A stretch of 55,147 nt of DNA, taken from positions 1 through 55,147 of the forward strand of contig DUQQ01000051.1 of assembly GCA_012837705.1 (NCBI GenBank), read 5' to 3'. The position numbers and the translations under genes were made by a program. The first letter of the stretch is position 1; each line of letters opens with the position of its first letter. Positions 9,816 to 40,809 of this stretch are shown here, piece by piece. The notes under the pieces were generated by a model. That model was not told where the DNA came from, ran no database searches, and saw nothing but the letters and a program-made list of their open reading frames with translations. This DNA comes from Hydrogenispora sp. GTDB lineage: Bacteria; Bacillota; UBA4882; UBA10575.

Positions 9816-9844
9816 TTGCCAAAGAAAGTAATCTGTGTTATAGT
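9816..9844 (+). promoter_or_regulatory. Promoter of structured unit A
   Basis: TTGCCA (9816-9821), 17 bases, then TATAGT (9839-9844) with TGT just before it (extended -10). Transcription would begin near 9851, at the 5' side of the structured element. Confidence 0.6.
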
Positions 9845-9860
9845 GTGAAACATGGAAATT

Positions 9861-10030
9861 TCCTAGCAAGGGAAAGGGATAAGAAGTCAACCACGCTGGC
9901 GACCGACAGCACACGTGAAGTGATAAAATCCGAAGCCAGGTGGGTGACAGGCCTCGAAGGCGCACAGCAGCAGGTCTATCAGCGGCGCTTCTGGCGCCGG
10001 GAGAATGACCGACTAGTGTTTTCTTAAGGA
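9861..10030 (+). ncRNA. Candidate structured RNA element, copy A
   Basis: The segment has its own promoter and is followed by a terminator, the layout of a riboswitch leader or a short ncRNA. It aligns with copy B at 38409-38552 in the same block order: RTGAAG, a pairing arm, GGGTGAMAGG, CGAAGGCG, CAGCGGYGC hairpin, GGGARA, ACMGAC and TTTTCT. Stem 1 pairs CCAC-g-CTGGC (9891-9900) with GCCAGGTGG (9935-9943). The hairpin GGCGC/GCGCC (9984-9998) becomes GGTGC/GCACC in copy B, a compensatory change. I do not recognise the class. It precedes the glycine-betaine transporter genes. Confidence 0.5.
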
Positions 10031-10086
10031 ACCAGCCGGAGTGAACTGGGAATTTAGGTTTATAGAACTTATGCCTATACAAAATT

Positions 10087-10116
10087 AAATCACTTACCGA
10101 TGTAGGTGATTTTTTT
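10087..10116 (+). terminator. Terminator between element A and the betaine transporter
   Basis: AAATCACTTAC (10087-10097) pairs with GTAGGTGATTT (10102-10112), followed by T's to 10116. It could end a free RNA or act as the switchable terminator of a leader. Confidence 0.8.
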
Positions 10117-10244
10117 ATGGCACCGGGAAAATAACAGGCGATTATTTTCTTAAGTAGAAAGTCAGTTCCCCCTTGGGATTACCTGAAGGTGGGGGGAAAT
10201 AATATTAAAACCAAAAGGAAACTAAGAAAAGGGAGTGGTTAGTT

Positions 10245-38365: not shown

Positions 38366-38408
38366 GGGTCTTGCGCAGGTATAGATCCTCGCGCCTTGCC
38401 CTATTTGC

Positions 38409-38552
38409 TCCTAGCGCCGCGAGTCAAATTCGAGGAAGTTACATGAAGATGTGGAAATTAAAGCTAGGAGGGTGAAAGGACCGAAGGCGGACCGCAACTG
38501 GTCATTCGCAGCGGTGCCCTTAGCACCGGGAAAGGACAGACTGCTATTTTCT
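38409..38552 (+). ncRNA. Candidate structured RNA element, copy B
   Basis: Homologous to copy A near 9.9 kb. ATGAAG (38443-38448), GCTAGG (38463-38468) and GGGTGAAAGG (38470-38479) are spaced exactly as in A. Stem 1 pairs CTCCTAGC (38408-38415) with GCTAGGAG (38463-38470). The hairpin GGTGC-CCTTA-GCACC (38513-38527) replaces GGCGC/GCGCC, with the same five-base loop. The block ends with GACAGAC and TATTTTCT. Here it lies inside the LPS-export operon before lptD, with no obvious promoter or terminator. Class not recognised. Confidence 0.5.
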
Positions 38553-38601: not shown

Positions 38602-40809
38602 TTGCATTATAAAACCTGGATGCTGGTGCTACTACTCTTCATAGGTGGGGGTTTGTTTGCCCCTGCTGTCCTGGCCGACCAGGGCGTTATCATCGCCGAT
38701 GAACTATTTGCTGACTATGAAAACGAGATCCTGGTGGCCCGGGGGAATGTGGTTTTTACATACCGGGATTATAAGGTACGGGGCGAGGAGTTTTACTTTG
38801 ACCTGGCAAATGAGCGGTTGACCGTTCCCGGGTGGGTCGAGGTGGAAACGGAAGAACGGACGGTTCAGGGAAAAAACCTGGCCTTTTTCTTGCCTGACGA
38901 ACATGGTACCCTTGAGGAATTTCTTCTCCTTGGGGAAGCAGAAACCGGCGAACCGATTGTAATCCAAGGGGAGAAAGGCGAGATTAGCGGCGAAGACCTG
39001 TTATGTACCAATTCGTCCTTTACCGGCTGTGACGCGGAAGAACCCCATTACCATCTTACTGCGAAACGGACGGTTTATTATCCGGAAGACCGGATCGAAT
39101 TTTATTCGGCATCTTACTGGGAAGGAAAGTTTAAATTTCCCGCCTTCCCCAAACTGGTCTTTTCCCTGCAGGAAGGGAAGAATGATTTTGACGATTCAGT
39201 CTTTGGGTACAACGTGGAGGATGGTTTCTTCTTGAAGATGGTCTACCGTTATTCTTTCACAGGAGGCGATCACCACGGAAAATTGCTTTTTGATCTGATT
39301 CAAGGGCAAGGGGTCGGGCAAGGGATTAAACACTGGATTCCGGTGGGTGCGAACCGTGAGTTTTCGGTCAGTATTTACCATATGGAGAACATATACGACG
39401 AACGCCATGATTATCAGGTGCAATCGGCGTGGTTCGAAAAGAAAGGGAACCTCACCTATGATTTGGGCGGAAAGTATCATGAACAAGGCTATCCCGAGTA
39501 CGCGCTGCGTGGCAACTTAAATTACCGGTCGGATAAACTGCCCACCAGTTTTCAGGTGGAGACCGGACAGACTGGTCTGAATCCCCAGTTTTATCTCTAT
39601 CCATGCCGTCTGAATATCAGTTGGCGGCCCGGTCCCCGGACCCGGCTGACTTACCGTAACAACCTCTATTACCGGGAAGATCTGACGACCGCCGAGGTGA
39701 TTACCAAGAAGTACCAGAACAACTTCGAGTTTGTGCAATCTTGGGACCTTTTTTCTCTGCGCGGTTTTCAGCTTACGGTGCGGGTGAAGCAGGATTACAA
39801 CTATAGTGATCGTTACCAAACGCAATTCTATCACGATCTACCCGCTGTCTCTTTTCAAACTCCCGCGATTTATCTGGGTTGGCCCGGATATTACCAAGGG
39901 AATGTGGATTATCTCCGGTTGGTTGCGATCAAAGGAGAGTCCGAAAAGATTGGAACCCGGACCGATTTGCAGTTGGCGCGCCGTTCGTTGGGGCCAAGCC
40001 TGTGGCAGCGTGGGGGATTCACCCTTGATCTGGCCAATAATAATCGTTACCAAATATACCAGGTGGCGGGGGTAGAATATCGACGTAGCGCTGTATCTCT
40101 GGGGTTGACTGGTACGCAGCGGTTTACGCCAAGTTTAACCTGGACCAACACTTTAAGTTGGGTAGAAGCGCAGGGTGAAGCACCTACCACCGAGTTCCCG
40201 CGTCTGGTGACTTCTTCGCATCTATTTAGGCCCGGCGGTCACCTCTCCAGTGCTTGGCGGTACAATAGCCAGCTGGTTAGTGCGAACCTTTCGGGTGGTT
40301 ACAACTTCAGCCAGGTCGAACACCCATGGTATCCGGTGCAAGGCACGGTGACGGTAACCCCCTTGCCCAATAGCAGGATTCGTTTGAATGCCACATATAA
40401 CCTCAACACCCAGGAGTATACCAATCTTTATCTAACGACGCGGCTAAGATACAATTCTGAACAAGGGAATAACTTGTATTTAGATGCGGATTACGATTTC
40501 CTGGATCGGCGGTGGGAGACTTTGGAAGTGGAAGCGGCGCTAAAAAATCAGCTTACTGCGACGCTCCAAAGTGATCTTAACCTCCGGTATAGTTTTTTCG
40601 GGGACGGTTTTGAACGTGTCCGGTTGGGCCTCACTTATGATTGGCACTGCCGGGAGTTGTTCTTCGGGTACGATCTCCTCCGCCAAGAGTATGTTGTACA
40701 GTGTCAGTATAAGATCTTTAAAGAGGCAGGTTTTGGGTATGGCTCCGGAGAACAAGGTTTTATGTGGACAGGAGCCGACCTGTGGGGAGGAGAAAATGAG
40801 TTCTGGTAA
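38602..40809 (+). CDS. lptD: LPS assembly protein LptD (OstA/Imp)
   Basis: The 735-residue protein has a signal peptide (cut near AVLA), an N-terminal OstA-type beta-jellyroll (GVIIADELFADYENEILVA; residues 26-200) and a long C-terminal beta-barrel (about 210-735) ending in Trp. It forms the outer-membrane LPS translocon that receives LPS from LptA; the plug lipoprotein LptE is not apparent. The start is TTG 38602 with a weak AAGG upstream. The 3' end overlaps lptC by 14 bases. Confidence 0.93.
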   Translation: MHYKTWMLVLLLFIGGGLFAPAVLADQGVIIADELFADYENEILVARGNVVFTYRDYKVRGEEFYFDLANERLTVPGWVEVETEERTVQGKNLAFFLPDEHGTLEEFLLLGEAETGEPIVIQGEKGEISGEDLLCTNSSFTGCDAEEPHYHLTAKRTVYYPEDRIEFYSASYWEGKFKFPAFPKLVFSLQEGKNDFDDSVFGYNVEDGFFLKMVYRYSFTGGDHHGKLLFDLIQGQGVGQGIKHWIPVGANREFSVSIYHMENIYDERHDYQVQSAWFEKKGNLTYDLGGKYHEQGYPEYALRGNLNYRSDKLPTSFQVETGQTGLNPQFYLYPCRLNISWRPGPRTRLTYRNNLYYREDLTTAEVITKKYQNNFEFVQSWDLFSLRGFQLTVRVKQDYNYSDRYQTQFYHDLPAVSFQTPAIYLGWPGYYQGNVDYLRLVAIKGESEKIGTRTDLQLARRSLGPSLWQRGGFTLDLANNNRYQIYQVAGVEYRRSAVSLGLTGTQRFTPSLTWTNTLSWVEAQGEAPTTEFPRLVTSSHLFRPGGHLSSAWRYNSQLVSANLSGGYNFSQVEHPWYPVQGTVTVTPLPNSRIRLNATYNLNTQEYTNLYLTTRLRYNSEQGNNLYLDADYDFLDRRWETLEVEAALKNQLTATLQSDLNLRYSFFGDGFERVRLGLTYDWHCRELFFGYDLLRQEYVVQCQYKIFKEAGFGYGSGEQGFMWTGADLWGGENEFW

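Follow-up and report, generated by a model that had tools for sequence, protein, structure and literature searches.

A probable mobile repeat with a covarying two-module fold in one family of diderm Bacillota

In the HUH/Y1 single-strand transposition of IS200/IS605 and REP systems, substrates are folded and carry extrahelical bases and a GTAG-like foot. Among the small dispersed repeats of bacteria, GTAG REPs are mobilised by RAYT Y1 transposases, the upstream gene often ends in a TAG stop codon that belongs to their tag, and head-to-tail order of their modules is absent or under-represented (Di Nocera et al. 2013, PMC3733652). Terminal inverted repeats and target duplications are described for BOX elements of Streptococcus pneumoniae (PMC3049150). 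The window analysed here is the whole 55,147-nt stretch of contig DUQQ01000051.1 of Hydrogenispora sp. (GCA_012837705.1), in which a preliminary description had reported two homologous structured elements, copies A and B, before unrelated genes. Copies A and B very probably go back to separate insertions of a mobile repeat that is non-coding, non-autonomous and limited to one family of diderm Bacillota.

Copy A was placed at positions 9885 to 10024 (left end AGTC, right end TGTTTTCT; model match 144 bits, E 4e-35) and copy B at 38403 to 38552 (98.6 bits), both on the + strand and with model borders differing slightly from those proposed before. The reported homology was borne out, with a local alignment score of 84 for A against B (mean 19 and maximum 32 in 500 shuffles of B), and the double changes from A to B were present as described (CTGGC/GCCAG to CTAGC/GCTAG, the adjacent CAC/GTG to CTC/GAG, and GGCGC/GCGCC to GGTGC/GCACC). 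The identical spacing claimed for the first half did not reach its 5' end; the 5' part of copy B contains additional sequence, and a clean alignment begins about 28 nt inside A. The gene after A was confirmed as a betaine transporter gene (OpuAC). The lptD identity given to the gene after B (38602 to 40809) is unproven, its protein having no Pfam or NCBIfam match; this gene follows LpxD and LptF/LptG genes, LptF/LptG being its upstream neighbour. Elsewhere, the window carries a T-box leader (193 to 479; RF00230, 95 bits).

A BLAST search of the 2.4-Mb genome of origin (G000) with copy A gave 18 matches, and a covariance model built from 12 copies gave 38 at E ≤ 1e-3 and 51 at E ≤ 1. Congeners carried 2 (G004), 5 (G002), 6 (G003), 29 (G006 and G007) or 37 (G001 and G005) copies, and other genera of the family 0 to 62, some of them 54 to 62. 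Further homologs were found by the covariance model at tens of copies per genome, both in the genome of origin and in relatives. Class-wide (29 genomes), matches at E ≤ 1e-5 occurred in this family alone, in 12 of its 16 genomes, and one weak match outside the family (G022) appeared at E ≤ 1e-3. A degenerate core pattern, searched in 84,980 genomes among which the window's own is possibly missing, occurred in the MAGs UBA5388, UBA5486 and UBA11021 and in one 'Peptococcaceae' bin, and in no others. The same pattern was absent from 2.9 million viral contigs, on which ground viral carriage was rejected. Comparison with Rfam gave no family and no curated covariance model matching the repeat, and in the open-access literature no repeat of this kind was found described for the lineage; judged from these two sources, the family is apparently novel. 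Contig ends of several relatives fall in these repeats, which thus fragment assemblies.

The whole element, about 140 to 165 bp, begins on the left with an end of GTAG type, continues with the bulged stem P1 of 14 bp, the linker hairpin and a second module related to the first, and ends in TATTTTCT. The left end is (ARGT)AGTCGCYCACGCTGGC, its consensus being ARGT followed by AGTCGC, and the GTAG tag stands at the foot of the palindromic unit, before the stem. In copy A, the 5' arm of P1 in module 1 (AGTCAACCACGCTGGC, with a bulged G; 9885 to 9900, + strand) pairs with the 3' arm (GCCAGGTGGGTGAC; 9935 to 9948, + strand). In the family the 3' arm, GCCAGGTGRG(T)CGAC, closes the stem, and P1 has a bulged G on its 5' side, to which many copies add a bulged T on the 3' side. 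In copy B, P1 has the inner 5' arm TCCTAGC (38409 to 38415, + strand), which pairs with GCTAGGA at 38463 to 38469. A small hairpin, its loop commonly GAA, lies inside P1; the module spans about 64 nt and its structured loop about 35 nt. The linker hairpin (GCC..GAAGGC) follows P1 and precedes the second module; in copy A it reads GGCCTCGAAGGC (9950 to 9961, + strand), and 83% of its cells are paired across 63 copies. The second module of copy A is a GC-rich hairpin, GGCGC/GCGCC (9973 to 10009, + strand), and in G001, G011 and G012 module 1 is clearly repeated, in direct orientation and with divergence, as the second module (GTTGTTCACGCCGAC...GTCGGGTGAATCAAC). The right end, TATTTTCT and then an ARGTAG motif, is near-invariant across copies (right terminus of copy A at 10017 to 10024, + strand). 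Terminal inverted repeats were not found in the end consensus, AGTCGC and TATTTTCT not being inverted. Tandem copies have one ARGTAG in common. The family is mosaic, because truncated and tandem copies occur together with copies bearing a third type of right half. The third type, in G011 and G012 (L079, L104, L105 and L108), has ACGAGC-like hexamers in runs (e.g. CGACGAGCTACGAG) ahead of TATTTTCT.

The fold was evaluated with a sequence-only alignment of 63 first modules and a named structure of 22 pairs, in which 82.7% of cells were paired. Changes on both sides occurred in 18 of the 22 pairs (10.7 in shuffled alignments; 0 of 500 shuffles as high), and there were 95 double-change cells (34.7 when shuffled, 27 to 38 when the structure was slid). 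The main stem was 91% paired and 11 of its 14 pairs covaried among the 63 copies, values that lean slightly towards the stem through the choice of copies by a stem-including model, a lean partly covered by the slid controls. Covariation far above both kinds of control agrees with the earlier proposal of a selected fold, not chance. The main stem was also recovered in single-sequence folds of A and two relatives. With all 63 module copies as input, RNAalifold returned no more than 5 pairs of the stem, a yield probably lowered by the diluting effect of degenerate copies, and the pair count on the named structure was used in place of that result. On the sense strand, the main stem had 55 G-U pairs against 26 A-C mispairs and the inner hairpin 40 against 8, and the linker hairpin had no G-U excess (9:13); cells from related copies are not independent in these counts. 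The G-U excess suggests that sense-strand RNA, or single-stranded DNA tolerant of G-T, is the form under selection.

Gene context was scanned at 107 matches, a few places having been fetched twice, with genes called by a simple codon-usage script. None of the 107 copies lay inside a gene. Flanking genes were oriented ++ in 47 cases, -- in 19, +- in 13 and -+ in 13, and in G000 ++ in 22 and -- in 2. Copies also lay between convergent genes and downstream of genes, some of them having no co-directional downstream gene. The downstream genes were unrelated and formed no consistent class, and the expectation that varied downstream genes would point to a non-coding RNA or a mobile repeat proved right. 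In many copies the stop codon of the upstream gene ended 6 nt or less before the start of the element, and in about 10 copies the TAG of the left junction was itself that stop codon. The sense bias may come from insertion at stop codons, from selection on mRNA, or from both. Agreement between left and right flanks of 51 copies was not clearly beyond their shared consensus, and target duplications of 4 to 7 bp in several registers reached at best p of about 0.05, uncorrected. Flanks agreed at one locus (AAGC/AAGC, L093) and differed at another (AGGT/AAAC, L149). Target-site duplication is not claimed, because the left and right motifs differ at L149 and agreement is near the shared consensus; joining at a short, site-specific core would also agree with the flank data.

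Joined-flank searches for empty sites in sister species revealed insertion polymorphism at orthologous sites. The site of copy A was empty in G005 (94% identical over the site) and in G004. At the site of copy B, G003 and G004 had the same two genes and no element, and G002 and G007 aligned contiguously. Four further loci of G000 (L033, L051, L053 and L064) were empty in most or all congeners; at L051, a single TAGGT in G003 corresponds to TAAGT at both flanks of the element in G000. The element inserts at these sites. Element copies at one locus differed between species. Comparison of the L058, L057 and copy B loci with G005 and G002 (L179, L173, L172 and L223) gave other element sequences or inserts at the same site, which suggests target-site reuse or module exchange in place.

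The preliminary description had also given copy A its own promoter and terminator. Both exist, the sigma-70-like promoter (TTGCCA-17-TATAGT) at 9816 to 9844 and the intrinsic terminator at 10087 to 10112 (both + strand), but they lie outside the repeat and do not belong to it. They are present in G005 and recognisable in G004, where the element is missing, and thus pre-date the insertion as parts of the native leader of the OpuAC betaine-transporter operon. The short leader enclosed upstream of the OpuAC gene (9816 to 10116) matched no Rfam family; it is possibly a native attenuator interrupted by copy A. Just after the terminator lies the 3' end of a truncated copy (10118 to 10150, + strand; consensus 3'-end BLAST, E 1e-4 in the window), present in G000 and G005 and absent in G004, and therefore an older insertion.

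The Y1_Tnp domain (PF01797) was absent in 10 of the 12 genomes tested, G000 included, and a resident RAYT system was rejected as the mobiliser for most of the genomes. G012 has the only clear Y1 gene, which was broken and belonged to an unrelated IS, with the nearest element about 3 kb off. An origin as a TnpB/omega-RNA derivative (PATE, guide RNA) was rejected for lack of TnpB (PF07282; 0 of 12 genomes). An integron-like or tyrosine recombinase mobiliser was likewise rejected, as G000 has only two tyrosine recombinases, neither of them distinctive. As to the mode of movement, we infer that a trans-acting recombinase or transposase would take the folded modules as its substrate and would join the element ends at short ARGT(AG)-like targets. 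Both TAG and TAA stops fit such a target, which would explain why many copies start at the end of the upstream gene. The mobiliser may have been lost, may be supplied horizontally or may be of another kind. The narrower proposal that the two homologous head-to-tail modules are read as folded RNA or single-stranded DNA by an enzyme outside the known Y1, TnpB and RT families, with insertion at ARGT(AG), stop codons included, and no strict duplication, is tentative and has a minor chance of being right. Within an operon, an inserted repeat would be transcribed and would form its RNA fold between cistrons of the mRNA, with possible effects on processing or stability. Any such effect would be a by-product of location, and the repeat would not serve the betaine transporter or the gene after B as a dedicated switch.

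A riboswitch of unknown class, or another cis-regulatory RNA in the 5' leaders of unrelated genes, would account for the covarying fold, for the sense bias in G000 and for the position of copy A, which has a good promoter before it, a terminator after it and a transporter gene downstream. It is nevertheless very improbable: the same element stands beside dozens of unrelated genes, also between convergent genes and downstream of genes, matches nothing in Rfam and varies from 2 to 37 copies among congeners. It is moreover missing from orthologous sites in sister species although the promoter and terminator persist there. A multicopy family of trans-acting small RNA genes is equally hard to accept; in its favour are the structure of the repeat and a putative short transcript that includes copy A, but the promoter and terminator around A are outside the repeat, most copies are intercistronic, many of them 0 to 60 nt from genes, and many are truncated or mosaic.

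A mobile origin followed by retention as an mRNA processing or stability element, like REP, ERIC or bcr3, is a more serious alternative, though still an unlikely one. The sense bias (47:19 overall, 22:2 in G000), the RNA-like G-U excess in the main stem and inner hairpin, and the correlation of bcr3 with mRNA decay in B. cereus (PMC3446304) speak for it. The ARGT/TAG target by itself could, however, account for placement after stop codons, species differ in the copies they carry at one locus, and the linker hairpin lacks the G-U excess. Replicative, SINE-like passage through RNA and a reverse transcriptase would suit the RNA-like covariation, the G-U excess and the absence of terminal inverted repeats. 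RVT_1 was nonetheless found in 1 of 12 genomes and was absent from G000 and the high-copy congeners, and reverse-transcriptase-driven spread was rejected as a candidate; even with loss of the enzyme being possible, dispersal of this kind has very little probability. Read as insertion of a mobile repeat, the riboswitch-like signal of copy A indicates that covarying leaders in MAGs can be repeats. The apparently undescribed family also offers clean pairs of empty and filled sites for studying intercistronic hairpin insertion and the missing mobiliser.

Compared with known systems, the repeat has in common with GTAG REPs a GTAG (or GGAG-like) motif at the foot of the palindrome, a bulged and covarying stem with G-T pairs, and dimers, and it is likewise intergenic, near the 3' end of the upstream gene, with the tag often being the TAG stop. 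It differs from them in size (about 140 to 165 bp, against 20 to 40 bp), in its structured loop of about 35 nt instead of a short one, in the head-to-tail order of its modules and in the conserved TATTTTCT end; 10 of the 12 genomes have no Y1 transposase, and a RAYT flanked by repeats was not found. Since neither its unit size and loop nor a RAYT association agrees with that class, the repeat is not assigned to the REPs. The absence of terminal inverted repeats from the end consensus also separates it from a DDE-type MITE. By its features it is like BOX (PMC3049150) in being modular, dispersed, intergenic and confined to few species, with a predicted RNA structure and variable module composition among copies. 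Inverted ends and target duplications are not evident in the repeat, unlike in BOX, and it is not filed there because inverted ends were not found. With bcr1-bcr3 of the Bacillus cereus group (PMC3446304), again by features, it shares a Bacillota host, restriction to a lineage, MITE-like character and frequent location in UTRs or operon intergenic regions, but it belongs to a different lineage and has no demonstrated target duplication. In having folded modules, extrahelical bases and a GTAG-like foot, it is like the substrates of HUH/Y1 transposition. By resemblance, the repeat belongs among the small mobile structured repeats represented by GTAG REPs, BOX and bcr1.
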